Positions 21,242 to 44,838 of a stretch of 50,084 nt of DNA are shown piece by piece. Both the position numbers and the translations under genes were made by a program. The stretch comes from Patescibacteria group bacterium. GTDB lineage: Bacteria > Patescibacteriota > Minisyncoccia > Phycocordibacterales > UBA918. Under the pieces are notes generated by a model. That model made no database searches. It was not told the DNA's origin and saw only the letters and a program-made list of their open reading frames with translations. The stretch lies in assembly GCA_018608435.1 (NCBI GenBank), contig JABAZV010000008.1:1-50084 (forward strand). The letters are read 5' to 3'. Every line of letters begins with the position of its first letter. Position 1 is the first letter of the stretch.

Positions 21242-22282
21242 ATGGCTAAACAGCATATTTTAATGCTTGTTGATTATCGTGGTACTTTCTACTCCTCAAC
21301 AAAGAGAGTGGCAGGAAGTATGGATGTGCCAAAATTGATACAGTTGTTTGAAAATTACGACTTTATTGTAAAGGTCGAGTCGTTTGCAGATGTAGATTTT
21401 CGGTCAGATAAGTATCGAAGTGTATATGTGTTATATCAATCTTCGGAAGACCCAGGCTTACATTATAAAGATTACATTGAAGATGTGCTTCTAGGACTTG
21501 AGTTGATGGGTGCAATCCTTGTTCCGGATTTTCTCAAGTTCAGGGCGCATCACAATAAAGTCTTTATGGAAATTCTTCGCGATACGAGCAAGAACGGATT
21601 GGTGTAATCTATTAAAGCTCAGTCATTTGGCACGCTGGATGATTGTTTAGCAAGAACCGACAAAATTCATTTGCCTGCAATTGTAAAGCCGTCATGCGGA
21701 TCAAGAAGTCAGGGTGTAGGCTTGGCTTCAACTCAGCATAAACTTGTTCAGATAACCCGAGCGATCAGCAAGACGTTTTCGTTTATTAACACGCGGAGAA
21801 TGTTGAAAGGGTTCATTAATGGTAGGGGATATAAGCCAATATCAAATTATAGGAAGAAATTTTTGTTGCAAGAGTTTGTTGAAGGATTGTCCTGTGACTA
21901 TAAAGTTGTTGTATATAAAGACAAATTCTACTTCTTTCAGCGACAGATTAAACCCGGTGACTTTAGAGCAAGTGGAACTCCGGATTTCAAATTCCCTTCG
22001 GAGGCACCAAAAGGTTTATTGGATTATGCTGAGAAGGTATTCGAATTGTTCGATGTTCCATTTGCTTCATTCGATATCGCAATAAAAAACGAAGTATTTT
22101 ACTTACTTGAATTTCAATTTGTTAGTTTTGGTCAACGAGCTATTGAGCGGTCTGAAATGTACTTTACAAGACAAGGCGGAAGTTGGCGTTCAGTAAAGTG
22201 TTCTTCAGATCTTGAAGAAAACTTCGCGGAATCTATTGTGTGGTATATATCTAAACAAAAGAGAGGTAAAGAAAATGCTTAA
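21242..22282 (+). pseudogene. ATP-grasp family gene with one in-frame TAA
   Basis: One frame of ~347 codons with a TAA at 21605-21607. Before the stop: HILMLVDYRGTFYSSTKR and a Rossmann-like first domain. After it, the ATP-grasp core: AIVKPSCGSRSQGVGLA (P-loop lysine and glycine loop), LLQEFVEGLSCDYKVVVYKD, FASFDIAIKNEVFYLLEFQF. This is a RimK/D-Ala-D-Ala-ligase-like arrangement, which joins a carboxylate to an amine or thiol. The start is fixed by a good Shine-Dalgarno AAGGAG (21229-21234, 7-nt spacing), rare in this window. The stop codon overlaps the downstream phosphatase ATG by 8 nt. A single base change (for example AAA or CAA to TAA) would account for the break. Confidence 0.75.
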
Positions 22283-22913
22283 ACAAATGATTCTAGTTCG
22301 CCATGCTGAATCAGAAGAAGATGTTAACCCAACAATAAGGAGTCATATTTTGGACAGCCGAATAGCACTAACTTCGGCTGGTAAAAAGCAAGTTGCAGAA
22401 CTAGCAAAAAATCTTTGTCCACTAATTGAACCATACAAAAACGTTCGTCTGGTTGCCTCCATAACAAACAGGGCAAAACAAACGACGCAGTTGTTTTCTA
22501 AACAATTTCCAGATCGTAAGTTTGAAGTCGTGTATGAAGATAGAGTACGGAGTCTTAACTGGGGCAGTGTTGATGAAACAAATATACGCAGGGTTGAAAG
22601 TGAGAGATATCAGGTTGGTGTACTGTACTTCAGGTTTCCAGAAGGAGATGACACGAACGTATTTGTTAAAGAAATAGAGAGCTTCGTTAAGGAATTAAAA
22701 GAGGCCGGAAAAGAAGCGTCGCATCCAGAGTGTGTAGTTGTATTTACCCACGGTTTCGCTCTGCGAGTTATTGTAAAAGCAGCGATTGGTATGTCTGACG
22801 ATGAATTTCGCTACTTGGCCAATCCGTCCAATTGTCACGTGGTGTCCTTAGGCTTTAGAGAAGATGTTTTTTCGTTAAAAGATCCTTTGCAAAGAATAAA
22901 CTTTGAGATCTAA
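22275..22913 (+). CDS. Histidine-phosphatase superfamily (PGAM-like) protein
   Basis: 212 aa. The RHG motif ILVRHAESEED has His near residue 10, LTSAGKKQ follows, ASITNRAKQTTQLF is the second Arg block, and VVVFTHGFALRVIV supplies the second catalytic His. The mechanism is phosphoryl transfer through a phospho-His; the substrate is not predictable. The start ATGCTTAA overlaps the ATP-grasp stop, so translation is coupled and the two enzymes probably act in one small pathway. An intrinsic terminator follows. Confidence 0.88.
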   Translation: MLKQMILVRHAESEEDVNPTIRSHILDSRIALTSAGKKQVAELAKNLCPLIEPYKNVRLVASITNRAKQTTQLFSKQFPDRKFEVVYEDRVRSLNWGSVDETNIRRVESERYQVGVLYFRFPEGDDTNVFVKEIESFVKELKEAGKEASHPECVVVFTHGFALRVIVKAAIGMSDDEFRYLANPSNCHVVSLGFREDVFSLKDPLQRINFEI

Positions 22914-22924
22914 ATGAGTACCCC

Positions 22925-22953
22925 CCCCATGCATTGTTTTGCATGGGGTTTTT
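22925..22953 (+). terminator. Intrinsic terminator after the phosphatase gene
   Basis: The 9-bp stem CCCCATGCA / TGCATGGGG with a 6-nt loop is followed by TTTTT (22949-22953). The next promoter (TACAAT, 22958-22963) starts five bases later. Confidence 0.9.
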
Positions 22954-22969
22954 ATTGTACAATTCAATT

Positions 22970-23515
22970 ATGTCGTATCTAAGCACAATCACTGACGAAG
23001 ACGTATTCTCAAATCCTTCGTTTAAAAAGCCAGATTATTTTAATCCTAGAGTGACTGTAAAGGCTATTGTGAAAAATAAAGAAGGAAAAATCGCATTGGT
23101 CACAAATGATGTGCATGGAATATACTCATTACCAGGAGGGGGAGCGGAATCAGAGGATTTGGAGAAAGAGATAAAGCGTGAATGTGCAGAAGAAATTGGG
23201 TGTTTAATTGAGCTGGTTGGTAGAGTTGGTCAGACACACGAGTTTCGTAACAGAGAAGCAAAAGAATATACGACCACCTGCTTTGTCGCTGAAGCAAAAA
23301 GTAAACTAGAGAAAGACACAAGAACTCCAGATGAACAAGATAATGGTTTGCGGGCAGAATGGATTGAGATGGGAGCTGCAATAAGTATTTTTTCTAAACA
23401 AAAAGAGGCGGTAAGAAACGATGATGTGAAGTTTTACAATACTGCATTTAATATCTTGCGTGACGGACTGTTTATTGAGACGTATCTTGCTGAAAGAAAG
23501 CATGGTTGTAGATAA
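22970..23515 (+). CDS. Nudix hydrolase
   Basis: 181 aa starting MSYLSTITDEDVF. The Nudix box is complete: LPGGGAESEDLEKEIKRECA followed by EEIGC, that is G-x5-E-x7-RE-x2-EE-x-G. Flanking strands fit the fold (VTVKAIVKNKEGKIALVTND, TTCFVAEAKS). It hydrolyses a nucleoside diphosphate linked to some moiety; the substrate is unknown. ATG 22970 is used because TACAAT lies exactly 6 nt upstream, and the frame from 22934 would begin inside the terminator. It is a single-gene unit. Confidence 0.92.
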   Translation: MSYLSTITDEDVFSNPSFKKPDYFNPRVTVKAIVKNKEGKIALVTNDVHGIYSLPGGGAESEDLEKEIKRECAEEIGCLIELVGRVGQTHEFRNREAKEYTTTCFVAEAKSKLEKDTRTPDEQDNGLRAEWIEMGAAISIFSKQKEAVRNDDVKFYNTAFNILRDGLFIETYLAERKHGCR

Positions 23516-38868: not shown

Positions 38869-40569
38869 ATGAAAAAAGAGATTCGGGAACAAATTGAATT
38901 AGTGCTTTCGGAGCTAGGTTTTTCTGGTATTGATTTTGCAATTGATTTCCCGACAGACAAAAACACCGACGCTGATTATTTTTCTAATGTGGCGATGGTG
39001 GCGGCAAAGCAGGCTGGTGAAGCACCACGACAATTTGCAGAGAAAATTGTCACAGCGCTAGAAGGAAGAATATCGCAGATAGAAAAAATAGAGATCGCTG
39101 GTCCAGGTTTTATAAACTTCTATCTCCAGCGTGAATTTTTTAGAGAAAAGATATTGAACGTCCTCGACGCTAAAGAGAATTGGGGTAAAAACAATAGCTG
39201 GTCAAACAAATTGGTGATCGTTGAATATACTGACCCGAATCCGTTTAAAGAATTGCACATCGGACATCTTGTCCCAAACGCGCTCGGTGAGTCGCTTGCT
39301 AGATTGTTTATGATGGCAGGAGCAAATACAAAGAGAGTTACTTTTCAGGGTGACGTTGGTATGCATGTTGCAAAAGCTCTTTATGGTGCAAGGCAGATTG
39401 ATGTTCAGTCAGAAAGTATTACGTCCGAACAGCTTGGCAAAGCATATGCAGCTGGGTCGAGAGCGTTTGAAAGCTCCGAAGAAGTCGCGGCTGAAATTAA
39501 AGGATTAAACAAAGTTATTTATAATCGCAGTGATGAAAAATTAAATACTCTTTACGACGCTGGAAAAAAAGTATCACTCGATTATTTTGAAGAAATATAC
39601 GCAGTGCTTGGTTCAGATTTTGATCACAACTTCTTTGAGAGTGTGACTGGTCCAGTTGGTTTGGAATTGGTGCAAAAAAATATTGGGGAAGTGTTTAAGG
39701 AGAGTCGAGGAGCAGTTATTTTCGAGGGAGAAAAATACGGTTTGCACACAAGAGTGTTTGTAAACAACGAAGGTTTACCAACTTACGAAACAAAAGACGT
39801 TGGGCTTATTCAGTGTAAAGAGAACTGGAGTCAAGAGACTGTCGGAAAATCTTTTGATCATGCAATTACTGTTACGGGCACAGAGCAGTTGGAGTATTTT
39901 AAAGTTACAACAAAGGCGAGTGAGCTTATTCAGCCAGATTTAGCTGGCAAAGTGGAGTTGGTTGCTAATGGAATGTTGCGTTTGGCTGAAGGAAAAATGT
40001 CTTCACGAACTGGCGATGTTGTTAGAGCGTTGGCGCTTATAACAGATGTTAAAGAAGCAGCGTTAGAGAGAATGAAAGAGAATAATGTGATTGATTCAGA
40101 AACAGTAGCCGAACAAATCGCTGTTGCGGCAATCAAGTATTCGATTCTGCAAATTGCCGCTGGAAAAGATATTGTTTTTGATCTTAAAAAATCAATTTCC
40201 TTTGAAGGAGACTCGGGACCATATTTACAATATACGCACGCGCGAATATGCAGCGTCTTGGAAAAGGCGAAGTCTGCTGGAGTAGAGCTGAGTGTGGAAA
40301 ATATTCCAGCTGAATCTTATGCCGTTGAGAAGCTGGTGCAACAGTGGCCGGAGGTGGTTGAGGTTTCTCTCAAGGAGCGAGCGCCACACAAAGTCGTGCA
40401 TTACCTCACGGAGCTGGCTGGAGAGTTTAACTCGTTTTATGCGGCCGAGAAAATTGCCGATGAAGATGATGAATACGCTCCGTACAAAGCAGCTGTTTCT
40501 GATGCTGTGCGAATCACGCTTGAGCGCGGTTTGTGGGTTTTGGGAATTGAAGCGCCAGAGCGGATGTAA
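38869..40569 (+). CDS. argS: Arginyl-tRNA synthetase
   Basis: 566 aa. An N-terminal additional domain (~1-105) is followed by the class I catalytic core: DPNPFKELHIGHLVPNALGE (HIGH), FQGDVGMHVAKALYGARQ, GLPTYETKDVGLIQ and LAEGKMSSRTGDVV (KMSK-like). The C-terminal DALR anticodon-binding domain has SGPYLQYTHARICSVL and ends WVLGIEAPERM. It charges tRNA-Arg. Closed by a strong terminator. Confidence 0.98.
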   Translation: MKKEIREQIELVLSELGFSGIDFAIDFPTDKNTDADYFSNVAMVAAKQAGEAPRQFAEKIVTALEGRISQIEKIEIAGPGFINFYLQREFFREKILNVLDAKENWGKNNSWSNKLVIVEYTDPNPFKELHIGHLVPNALGESLARLFMMAGANTKRVTFQGDVGMHVAKALYGARQIDVQSESITSEQLGKAYAAGSRAFESSEEVAAEIKGLNKVIYNRSDEKLNTLYDAGKKVSLDYFEEIYAVLGSDFDHNFFESVTGPVGLELVQKNIGEVFKESRGAVIFEGEKYGLHTRVFVNNEGLPTYETKDVGLIQCKENWSQETVGKSFDHAITVTGTEQLEYFKVTTKASELIQPDLAGKVELVANGMLRLAEGKMSSRTGDVVRALALITDVKEAALERMKENNVIDSETVAEQIAVAAIKYSILQIAAGKDIVFDLKKSISFEGDSGPYLQYTHARICSVLEKAKSAGVELSVENIPAESYAVEKLVQQWPEVVEVSLKERAPHKVVHYLTELAGEFNSFYAAEKIADEDDEYAPYKAAVSDAVRITLERGLWVLGIEAPERM

Positions 40570-40731: not shown

Positions 40732-43700
40732 ATGAATAACAAATCTAAAGCAGTAGAAAAAGAAGTAGAAAAAAGTGACGTCGCTAAACGTGAAGAAAAC
40801 ATTCTTGCGTTTTGGAACGAACACGACATTTTTAATAAAAGTGTGGAGCGCCCTGCGGGCGCTCCACCGAAAGACAATTACGTCTTTTACGACGGCCCGC
40901 CTTTCGCCACAGGCTTGCCACACTACGGACATCTTTTAGCAGGCACGATCAAAGACGCCGTGCCGCGTTTTTGGACTATGAACGGATACCGCGTTAAGCG
41001 TAGATGGGGATGGGATTGTCACGGTCTGCCGCTCGAAAACCTGATTGAGAAAAAACTTGGTCTGGCGACTAAGCGTGATATTGAAGATTTTGGAGTTAAG
41101 AACTTCAATGAAGCCGCACGTAATACTGTGATGGAATACGCTGATGACTGGAAAAGAATAATTCCACGCATGGGTCGTTTTGCTGACATGGAAAATGACT
41201 ACAAAACCATGGACAGCGCTTATACCGAAAGTGTTTGGTGGGTGTTTAAATCATTGCACGAAAAAGGTTTGGTGTACGAAGGTTTTAAAACCATGCATCT
41301 TTGTCCTCGTTGCGGCACTACTCTTTCTAATTTTGAAGTGAATCAGGGATACAAAGATATTAAAGACATAGCTATTACAATAAAGCTTCCACTACTTGAC
41401 GAAGCTGGTGAAAAAACTGACACATCGCTTTTGGTATGGACGACGACACCTTGGACAATGCCTGGCAACATGGCTGCGGCCGTGAATAAGGAGTTTGATT
41501 ATGTGAAAGTGGCGATTGAAACAGAAGACGGAACAGAAAACGTTATTTTAGCGAAAGGCCGTTTGGAACAACTTGGTGACCTAGAGCACAAAGTAGTAGA
41601 AGAAATTAAAGGTAGCGAGCTCGTAGGGCGGCGCTACGCGCCGCCCTTCCCGTGGCTGCAAGATCAAGACGTCGAAGGTAAGGAAAACGCGTGGACAATT
41701 TATCATGCTGACTACGTTGAGCTGGGAGAGGACGGAACGGGAGCTGTTCATATCGCTCCTGCTTACGGTGAAGACGACATGAACCTCGCCAAGGAACACG
41801 GCGTACCGATTGCGCATCATGTCGACGAAAGCGGACGATTCAAAGAGTTTGTAACAGACTTCGCTGGACAATTGGTAAAACCAAAAGACGACGACGAATC
41901 TGGCGTAATGCATCTAGATGCAGATATTGAAATCGTCAAAGTACTTAAAACAAACGGACGTCTTTTAAAAAAAGAAAACATCACTCACAGTTACCCTCAT
42001 TGTTGGCGTTGCGATACGCCGCTGCTTAATTACGCCACGACATCTTGGTTTGTGGAGGTGACAAAAATACGCGATGAGCTCGTCGCCGCCAATAATAAGG
42101 TGCGTTGGGTGCCAGAACATGTTGGAAAAAACCGCTTCGGAAAATGGCTAGAAGGTGCACGTGATTGGGCTGTTAGTAGACAGCGCTATTGGGGAGCGCC
42201 ATTGCCAATTTGGAAAAACCCAGAAACTGGAGAGCATAAAATACTTGGCAGTCTTGCAGAACTTAAAGAATACGTACCAAAGAGTGGTAACCAGTATTTT
42301 GTGATGCGACATGGAGAAAGTGAAGGTAATGTGGCGGGTGTAATTTCAGCTAACATAAATAACGATGATTCGGTTACTGAAAAAGGAAGAGGGCAGGCAC
42401 AGGCGACAGCGAGTGAGCTTGAAGAAAAAAATATTGATCTGATTATAGCTTCTCCCTTTATGCGCACGCGGCAAACAGCAGAGATCGTGAGAGTAAAATT
42501 TGGATTGCCTGAAGCGGCAGTCGTCTTTGACGACCGTATTCGTGAGCTTGATTTGGCGGATGAGCTTGAAGGGAAGCTCTGGCATGATAATTACGCAGCC
42601 AACTTTGCCAATTGGGAAGAACGTTTTACAAAAAAACTTGATGGTTCAGAAAATCGCCGCGACGTGATGAATCGAGTAGGTAAATTCCTGTACGAGCTTG
42701 AGCATAAATATCAAGGTAAAAATATTTTGATCGTTAGTCACGGTGGACCGATTGCAACTATGCGTGCAGTTGCTTCAGGCTGGAACATAGAGCAGCAAAA
42801 AGCTGATTACGATACTGGTCGGTATTTTAAAAATGCCGAATGGGAGCAGCTCGACTTTGTTCCTTTGCCGCATAACGATAATTACGAACTTGATTTTCAT
42901 CGTCCGTACATCGACGACGTTGTGCTGGAAGAAGACGGAGTAAAGCTGGAGCGTATTCCTGACGTTTTTGATTGCTGGTTTGAAAGTGGATCAATGCCTT
43001 ATGGACAGCATCATCATCCATTCAGAAATAGTAAAGCTTTTGAAAAAGAACATTTTCCAGCGAACTTTATTTCCGAAAGTGTCGATCAAACACGCGGTTG
43101 GTTCTATTCATTAATGGTGCTTGGAGTAGCTTTGTTTGGTAGGTCGCCGTTTGAGAATGCTGTGACTAACGGTTTGGTTTTGGCGGAAGACGGACGCAAA
43201 ATGAGTAAGTCATTGCAAAATTATCCAGACCCGATGGAATTGGTTGATAGACAAGGAGCAGACACGATGCGTTTCTATTTACTTTCTTCGCAGATTATAA
43301 AAGGCGAAGATTTAAACTTTTCAGAGAAAGAGGTAAACGAGTTGCAGCGTAAAAACATCGGTAGGTTACACAACGTGCTGGCTATGTACGAGATGTTTGA
43401 TGGTGCAGATGTTGTGCTTTCTGATGATTCAGACAATGTCTTAGACCAGTGGATTATTGCTCGGCTTAATCAACTAGTGAATGATTCGACCAGTGGTTAT
43501 AAAAACTATGAGCTCGATAAAGCTACTCGCCCGATTACAGACTTTATCGACGATCTTTCGGTGTGGTATTTGCGCCGCAGTCGCGATCGACTGAAGGGTG
43601 ATGATGTGGAAGATAAGAATAAAGCAATCGCAACGCTTGGTTATTCGCTACGCACTCTTTCGCTTGTGATGGCTCCGTCGATGCCGTTTTATGCAGAACA

Positions 43701-44259
43701 TCTTTGGCTAGCAGTGAAAACAAAAAGCGACGCTGAAAGCGTTCACCTTGCAGCGTGGCCAGAAGAGAAGCCGGTTGATGAAGAGGTGTTCGAAAACATG
43801 CTTAAAGTAAGAGAGGTGGTAACAGCGGCGCTCGAGGCGCGCACTAAGGCTGGTATTAAAGTGCGTCAGCCGATCGCAGCTGTTCAGGGTGTTGAATTGT
43901 CAGCAGAACTCGTGCCAATTGTTCTTAGTGAGCTCAATGCCAAAAAATACGAAGTAGCTGACGAGGTTGGAATCGAAACAAAACTCTCGCCAGAATTATT
44001 AGCAGAAGGTTCGGTGCGTGAGTTGATGCGGGCAGTGCAAGGGAAGCGTAAGGCTGATGGGCTTGAGTCTAAAGATGAAGTTGTTCTTTCTGTTAAAACT
44101 AGTGAGTTTGGAAAGTCAGCAATTGTTGCACATGAAGATTTATTGGTTAAAACAGTTGGTGCAACAGAACTTAATTTCGTTGATGATATTACGTTGGAAG
44201 AAAGTGAGGGGGTTTCTACAAACGAGATTGAATTTTTGTTTGCGCTTAAGAAAATCTAA
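40732..44259 (+). CDS. ileS: Isoleucyl-tRNA synthetase with inserted histidine-phosphatase domain
   Basis: 1175 aa. Class I core with HYGH at 64-67, an upper zinc site (CPRCGTTLSN), CP1 editing domain (GTGAVHIAPAYGEDDMNLAK), WAVSRQRYWGAPLPIW and KMSKS at 823-827. YPDP follows, as in the eukaryote-like IleS type. Between GSLAELKEYV and DFHRPYIDDV, residues ~518-715 form a full PGAM-type domain: RHGESEGN (R526, H527), VTEKGRGQAQATASELEEK, ASPFMRTRQTAEIV, VSHGGP with H670. Both catalytic histidines are present. The frame is continuous, so this is a real insertion. It charges tRNA-Ile; the phosphatase substrate is unknown. recO starts immediately after the stop. Confidence 0.97.
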   Translation: MNNKSKAVEKEVEKSDVAKREENILAFWNEHDIFNKSVERPAGAPPKDNYVFYDGPPFATGLPHYGHLLAGTIKDAVPRFWTMNGYRVKRRWGWDCHGLPLENLIEKKLGLATKRDIEDFGVKNFNEAARNTVMEYADDWKRIIPRMGRFADMENDYKTMDSAYTESVWWVFKSLHEKGLVYEGFKTMHLCPRCGTTLSNFEVNQGYKDIKDIAITIKLPLLDEAGEKTDTSLLVWTTTPWTMPGNMAAAVNKEFDYVKVAIETEDGTENVILAKGRLEQLGDLEHKVVEEIKGSELVGRRYAPPFPWLQDQDVEGKENAWTIYHADYVELGEDGTGAVHIAPAYGEDDMNLAKEHGVPIAHHVDESGRFKEFVTDFAGQLVKPKDDDESGVMHLDADIEIVKVLKTNGRLLKKENITHSYPHCWRCDTPLLNYATTSWFVEVTKIRDELVAANNKVRWVPEHVGKNRFGKWLEGARDWAVSRQRYWGAPLPIWKNPETGEHKILGSLAELKEYVPKSGNQYFVMRHGESEGNVAGVISANINNDDSVTEKGRGQAQATASELEEKNIDLIIASPFMRTRQTAEIVRVKFGLPEAAVVFDDRIRELDLADELEGKLWHDNYAANFANWEERFTKKLDGSENRRDVMNRVGKFLYELEHKYQGKNILIVSHGGPIATMRAVASGWNIEQQKADYDTGRYFKNAEWEQLDFVPLPHNDNYELDFHRPYIDDVVLEEDGVKLERIPDVFDCWFESGSMPYGQHHHPFRNSKAFEKEHFPANFISESVDQTRGWFYSLMVLGVALFGRSPFENAVTNGLVLAEDGRKMSKSLQNYPDPMELVDRQGADTMRFYLLSSQIIKGEDLNFSEKEVNELQRKNIGRLHNVLAMYEMFDGADVVLSDDSDNVLDQWIIARLNQLVNDSTSGYKNYELDKATRPITDFIDDLSVWYLRRSRDRLKGDDVEDKNKAIATLGYSLRTLSLVMAPSMPFYAEHLWLAVKTKSDAESVHLAAWPEEKPVDEEVFENMLKVREVVTAALEARTKAGIKVRQPIAAVQGVELSAELVPIVLSELNAKKYEVADEVGIETKLSPELLAEGSVRELMRAVQGKRKADGLESKDEVVLSVKTSEFGKSAIVAHEDLLVKTVGATELNFVDDITLEESEGVSTNEIEFLFALKKI

Positions 44260-44838
44260 ATGTCTTACAAGACTTACACTACCGATGCGCTTGTGTGTCG
44301 TGCGAGTGATCACAATACAGACGATCGTTCGTTTCTGCTTTTTACTCGAGAGCTGGGTATGCTGTTTGCTTCTGCACGCAGTGTGCGGAAAGAGAGTTCT
44401 CGCCAGCGTTACGCGCTGCAAGAATTTTCGCGAGTGCGTGTATCGCTAGTAAAAGGAAAGGCTGGCTGGCGCATCGGCAGCATAGAATCACAAAAAAATT
44501 ACTATCATGCAGCGGTAGACAAGGCAGCGCGGGGAAGTGCTGTGAGCTTGTTTCGTTTACTGCAAAGATTTTTGCATGGTGAAGAAGCACAGGTTCATTT
44601 GTTTGATTACACTGAAGAAGCTTTGGAGGCTGTTTCTTCTGCTCTAAAGGAACGTTCGTTCGTTGATACTGCTGTGGCAGTGCGCGTGCTTGGTGAACTT
44701 GGGTATGTTGATGGGAAGATGGTTCCTGAGGTTTTGGTTTCTCTGTCCCCTAAAGAGCTAGATAATGAATATAACGACGAAGTCAATTTAGTTATTTCTA
44801 AGCTTTACGCGCAAGCGGTGACAGCTAGTCACTTGTAG
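44260..44838 (+). CDS. recO: DNA repair protein RecO (short form)
   Basis: 192 aa, shorter than the ~240 typical. The N-terminal OB-fold is recognisable: YTTDALVCRASDHNTDDRSF, LFTRELGMLFASARSVRKES and SRQRYALQEFSRVRVSLVKG. A helical part follows, but the C-terminal zinc cysteines of many RecO proteins are absent. RecO loads RecA on SSB-coated DNA in RecFOR repair. ATG abuts the ileS stop (TAA-ATG), so it is translated from the same message. Confidence 0.78.
   Translation: MSYKTYTTDALVCRASDHNTDDRSFLLFTRELGMLFASARSVRKESSRQRYALQEFSRVRVSLVKGKAGWRIGSIESQKNYYHAAVDKAARGSAVSLFRLLQRFLHGEEAQVHLFDYTEEALEAVSSALKERSFVDTAVAVRVLGELGYVDGKMVPEVLVSLSPKELDNEYNDEVNLVISKLYAQAVTASHL

Follow-up and report, generated by a model that had tools for sequence, protein, structure and literature searches.

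Why an isoleucyl-tRNA synthetase should carry a phosphatase within its chain is the question raised by one gene of the window, the 50,084-nucleotide stretch of Patescibacteria DNA that was analysed here. Few enzymes have been studied as much as the aminoacyl-tRNA synthetases, and a phosphatase was unexpected as a partner for them. No description of a phosphatase within IleRS or ValRS was found in the openly licensed papers that we searched; the architecture may be visible on database domain-architecture pages, which were left unchecked, without having been discussed. Enzyme domains in synthetases are as such already known, for example from the NCBIfam family ileS_w_GNAT.

The gene, ileS, occupies positions 40732-44259 of the forward strand and encodes a eukaryote-like or type 2-like isoleucyl-tRNA synthetase with an inserted phosphatase. 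Its product scored 878.8 bits against TIGR00392 (ileS), above the curated cut-off of 621.4, and this match splits into two stretches, one on either side of the insert. The synthetase motifs HYGH (residues 64-67) and KMSKS (residues 823-827) are intact, as is the CP1 editing region, with TTTPWT and GTGAVHIAPAYGEDD found in the translation. The full-length protein was modelled by AlphaFold2 with a pLDDT of 90.3 and a pTM of 0.84, and the model gave VIA-align Z scores of 39-44 to the yeast, Priestia type 2 and Thermus IleRS. The synthetase part is nearest to the eukaryotic and type 2 bacterial enzymes. Thus, the open reading frame is an isoleucyl-tRNA synthetase; that it charges tRNA-Ile with isoleucine is inferred, with no assay data. 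Its neighbours are conserved, as judged from gene order over the loci: argS lies upstream (38869-40569, forward strand), and a recO-like gene (44260-44838, forward strand; RecO_N, PF11967, E 1.4e-9) lies downstream, the order argS-ileS-recO being found in many loci.

The inserted domain, of the PGAM type, covers residues ~514-722 (42271-42897, forward strand), a position that we call site A, and its assignment rests on PF00300, AlphaFold2 and structure matches. The sequence-only reading had described a complete, non-decayed phosphatase in an unbroken frame within an otherwise complete IleS, and our results support that description: the frame is open for all 1175 residues, the synthetase passes its family cut-off, the catalytic residues are kept (see below), and Pfam His_Phos_1 (PF00300) matched residues 523-688 with an E-value of 5e-31 and 108.3 bits, above the gathering threshold of 21.7. 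This match is flanked by tRNA-synt_1 (residues 24-513) and by the C-terminal half of the synthetase. In an alignment to yeast IleRS, query residue 514 corresponded to residue 491 and query residue 720 to residue 498, so that the insert displaces only ~6 residues. By published definitions, CP2 is the connective peptide that joins the two halves of the Rossmann (HUP) fold (PMC10485003). The insertion site is CP2, directly ahead of the second half of the catalytic fold; an earlier placement in the catalytic core was therefore correct in that the insert separates the synthetase halves, but not in that it would interrupt the catalytic fold itself. When the domain was modelled alone, AlphaFold2 folded it with a pLDDT of 96.1, and the nearest solved structures were phosphatases, with Z scores of 22.3 for PspA (4ij6; rmsd 2.4 over 184 residues), 21.3 for PhoE and 21.2 for GpgP. 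The insert is a complete branch-1 histidine phosphatase domain, for which metal-independent phosphomonoesterase activity is predicted from sequence and model in the absence of assay data.

In the histidine phosphatase family, the phosphate pocket is formed by the residues R, H, N, R, E and H (PMC12051542), and the window insert fills this set with R526, H527, N533, R578, E605 and H670. R526, H527 and H670 had been named previously and are located as proposed, and R578 and E605 fill the expected remaining places. For conservation, we used 127 distinct IleS-borne domains, one of which is cut by the end of its locus at the second histidine. The RHG motif (42307-42315, forward strand), which contains the phospho-acceptor H527, has its R and H in 127 of 127 domains and, in its third position (G528), G in 116 and A in 11. 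R578 (42463-42465, forward strand), the pocket arginine, was likewise found in 127 of 127, and H670 (42739-42741, forward strand), the second catalytic histidine, in all 126 that reach its column. The general acid/base E605 (42544-42546, forward strand) is E in 121 of the 127 and D in 6, and N533 (42328-42330, forward strand), whose role in the pocket is assigned by homology (PMC12051542), is N in 125 of 135 domains in large frames. Loss of the catalytic histidines among homologues would have favoured a structural remnant; instead, both histidines and both arginines are kept among the 127 IleS-borne domains, and this conservation excludes a decayed remnant. It does not reflect a lack of divergence, because the insert evolves faster than the protein that holds it (49% identity to L002, vs 66% for the whole protein). 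In ValS-borne domains, changes of the acid or of a histidine do occur, and the second histidine is lost in L096. One site A insert (L008) has ~30 residues deleted after the acid residue and keeps all catalytic residues. At 22212-22913 and 22934-23515, the window contains another histidine phosphatase gene beside a NUDIX gene; this second phosphatase is highly divergent and has Ser where the acid residue normally stands.

The comparison of CPR IleS sequences and the structure prediction that the sequence-only reading had suggested as checks both came out in its favour, the insert being class-wide with conserved histidines and the fold being confidently predicted. Beyond that reading, we observed the breadth of this distribution, a separate orthologue abutting ileS in relatives, and similar domains at other IleS sites and in ValS. 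Distribution was assessed by running a profile, built from the insert and its flanks, against 384 sampled genomes of the class, with E<1e-60 taken as a strong match. Strong matches were found in roughly 235 of the 384 genomes (about 60%), including 35 of 41 from the window's order, and nearly every genome of the class matched to some degree. A His_Phos_1 match in a frame of at least 1100 residues was present in 36 of 42 sampled genomes of the order, and 13 genomes of the order, each with a completeness of 93% or more, have no His_Phos_1 match apart from the IleS domain. In the rest of the phylum, the insert with its flanks was matched in about 14 of 142 sampled genomes, and the sampled outgroup IleS, from Spirochaetota, Kiritimatiellota and Lentisphaerota, have no insert. 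An assembly or frameshift artefact is excluded, since dozens of genomes that were assembled independently share this architecture.

Relatives without the insert often have a free phosphatase gene adjoining ileS, with profile E-values of 1e-43 to 1e-57. When such class genomes were re-examined, the match in most of them was a free phosphatase, ~190-230 residues long, whose gene immediately precedes an insert-less ileS on the same strand; these genomes had been preselected for a strong free phosphatase match without a full insert, so the frequency of the pairing is biased. At ten overlapping or abutting loci (L253, L254, L257-L261, L263, L064 and L070), the phosphatase ends close to the nearest upstream Met of ileS, its stop falling anywhere from 9 nt beyond that Met to 6 nt short of it. 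The gene order there is argS, phosphatase, ileS, with the recO-like gene downstream in some loci, and in insert carriers it is argS, ileS with its insert, recO. Two IleS from adjacent-gene loci were confirmed by TIGR00392. The adjacent genes form one clade (SH-aLRT 97), in which one genome no longer has its copy beside ileS, and this clade is nested in a larger group (97) that holds the site A inserts of the class. The domain is fused in many Patescibacteria and encoded by an abutting gene in close relatives, and therefore the synthetase and phosphatase activities are probably linked, in a manner not yet described. Some relatives show a third state, in which argS-ileS-recO is kept and the phosphatase is absent both as an insert and as a neighbour. 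The phosphatase function is dispensable or replaceable, because such relatives exist and one genome, G307, has no His_Phos_1 match at all.

Similar domains recur at other positions. In Peregrinibacteria/Peribacteria, a second domain lies ~15 residues downstream (site B), where it replaces a small zinc-ribbon loop. Site B domains form a separate clade, and a single clade of sites A and B was rejected (p 0.025); a single origin of site A was neither shown nor rejected (p 0.12). In the tree of synthetase cores, L030, which has both sites, was entered as A, and the B label of L142 is unverified. Four inserts, those of L028, L023, L101 and L110, group together in one clade (100/99), whereas their IleS cores reject one clade (p 1.5e-10). 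This conflict between insert and core trees suggests that the phosphatase module moves between ileS genes. A third position (site C), in the anticodon-binding region, is occupied in a 1451-residue IleS (L094, 2638-6990, reverse strand) that also has a GNAT insert at residues ~666-764; the same genome encodes a ValS with tandem phosphatases (L093). A further IleS (L147, 103-3621) has three His_Phos_1 stretches in a 1572-residue frame. In ValS, the phosphatases sit between the SRQIxWG and D(T)WFSSG blocks (L093, in tandem, L095, L096, L139, L141, L145 and L158), and two of these proteins (L141, 1-2892, and L145, 1-2943) each hold two inserted enzymes, a serine hydrolase (PF06821) and a histidine phosphatase. 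PGAM-like domains were also seen fused to a pyruvate kinase (L100), a 2-hydroxyacid dehydrogenase (L098) and a DedA-like membrane protein (L099), with the partners judged from sequence only, and their mutase clade also contains L097, a frame of 552 residues.

These observations leave us with a preferred reading, to which we assign a probability of about 0.55: the insert is a catalytically competent branch-1 phosphatase in CP2 that is functionally tied to IleRS. Fold, catalytic residues and their conservation, class-wide distribution, fused or adjacent pairing and recurrence are observed, as is the failure to detect enolase and iPGM in the window's genome; the activity of the domain, the functional meaning of the pairing and the nature of the substrate are inferred. 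The main rival is incidental hitchhiking, in which an active phosphatase with an unrelated housekeeping substrate occupies a tolerant loop of an essential gene, and co-expression is incidental or serves dosage only, uncoupled from aminoacylation. It is the main rival because the synthetases of this phylum take up other enzyme domains and because phosphatases of this family fuse to unrelated enzymes: CPR synthetases hold a GNAT in one IleS and a serine hydrolase in two ValS, and CPR phosphatase domains are joined to what, by their sequences, are an unrelated pyruvate kinase, 2-hydroxyacid dehydrogenase and DedA-like protein. CP2 loops tolerate insertion, and the conflict between insert and IleS phylogenies is as for a mobile module. 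However, it is the same pair of related synthetases, IleRS and ValRS, that acquired the domain on more than one occasion, and in relatives the orthologous free gene is translationally coupled to ileS, neither of which fits a mere passenger well. We consider this explanation possible, although we do not favour it.

The remaining explanations carry less weight. The domain might confer built-in immunity to Trojan-horse antibiotics, synthetase inhibitors of the adenylate or nucleotide type, by destroying them or blocking their binding. Histidine phosphatases of the SixA type cleave P-N bonds, which would suit such a role, and the GNAT of another CPR IleS could be a second detoxifying type. There is a precedent of principle in the histidine-triad hydrolases that inactivate microcin C-type aspartamide-adenylate; the homologues tested in that work included a standalone one from a single Parcubacteria strain (PMC7157772). 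Class-wide retention, however, resembles housekeeping, whereas resistance would be patchy, and the known family members act on phosphomonoesters, while adenylates are phosphodiesters or mixed anhydrides; we regard the proposal as doubtful. A purely structural or tRNA-positioning role, with catalysis irrelevant, could be argued from the CP2 position near the catalytic fold and from the faster divergence of the insert, but it is very improbable when the catalytic residues of IleS-borne domains are all invariant or conservatively replaced and the homologous domain is a separate protein in relatives. Least credible is a role for the domain as the cofactor-dependent phosphoglycerate mutase of the cell. 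Among NCBIfam models, the lone domain does match dPGM_arch best (84 bits), and three relatives that have enolase and lack iPGM or any other His_Phos_1 match stay ambiguous; yet the lone domain falls under the curated cut-offs (84 vs 225 bits for dPGM_arch, 21.9 vs 81.7 for pgm_1), and the nearest folds are phosphatases. Targeted searches of the window's genome, which is 97.9% complete, gave no match to enolase or iPGM, and neither was found in most of the tested genomes whose only such domain is the IleS-borne one. A glycolytic mutase role was rejected for the window's genome on the absence of both matches, and for the insert in general a glycolytic role is unlikely. Compensation for an absent pyrophosphatase is unsupported as an explanation, as a PF00719 gene is present in the window's genome.

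Under the preferred reading, a phosphatase tied to IleRS, the enzyme would be supplied one-to-one with the synthetase, in cis as the insert or in trans from its own gene, whose end meets the start codon of ileS. Because the domain belongs to the histidine phosphatase family, it should work like PhoE or PspA: H527 would accept the phosphate to form a phospho-histidine intermediate, R526, R578 and H670 would hold the phosphate, E605 would give a proton, and water would free Pi, with no metal involved. A role tied to IleRS and ValRS is favoured because of the fused or adjacent pairing and the recurrence in both synthetases. The most likely such role would be the removal of a small phosphorylated compound made at, or inhibiting, a branched-chain synthetase, presumably a nucleotide or an adenylate-type by-product or inhibitor rather than the substrate of a central-metabolism step. 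The sequence-only reading had put forward adenylate by-products, AMP or a stress nucleotide as possible substrates. More tentatively, Patescibacteria might possess a system in which a phosphatase dedicated to the branched-chain synthetases clears a phosphorylated product or inhibitor of aminoacylation or editing, through repeated insertion or a translationally coupled gene. The domain is kept in genomes of 0.5-1 Mb that are stripped of most metabolism, where it is often the sole detected member of its superfamily, and the IleS-borne copies retain their catalytic residues. The pairing, fused or adjacent, offers a direct, testable handle on function. Confirmation of the coupling would uncover a so far unknown step or hazard of isoleucylation, and would add a further level of quality control or immunity to the synthetases of a large bacterial branch.

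Among known systems, the insert shares its fold (Z 20-22 over ~184 residues) and the R, H, N, R, E, H phosphate pocket (PMC12051542) with PspA of Hydrogenobacter, PhoE of Geobacillus, GpgP (Rv2419c) and the Aquifex ARAPDP phosphatase. In contrast to the insert, to which they are 24-28% identical, these are free proteins with metabolic substrates, outside any synthetase. The microcin C resistance protein MccH, of the histidine-triad type, is likewise a histidine-based hydrolase and acts on a synthetase-inhibiting adenylate (PMC7157772), but its fold is unrelated to that of the insert and it is encoded by a separate gene. NF040702 (ileS_w_GNAT) also describes an enzyme domain within IleS; that domain is a GNAT and not a phosphatase, and the window IleS, at 324.6 bits against a cut-off of 1999, is not a member. 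The IleRS2 of Priestia megaterium and the IleRS of yeast and Thermus thermophilus resemble the window IleS in whole fold, motifs, CP1 editing region and C-terminal domain, but have ~6 residues where the window IleS has a 200-residue phosphatase.
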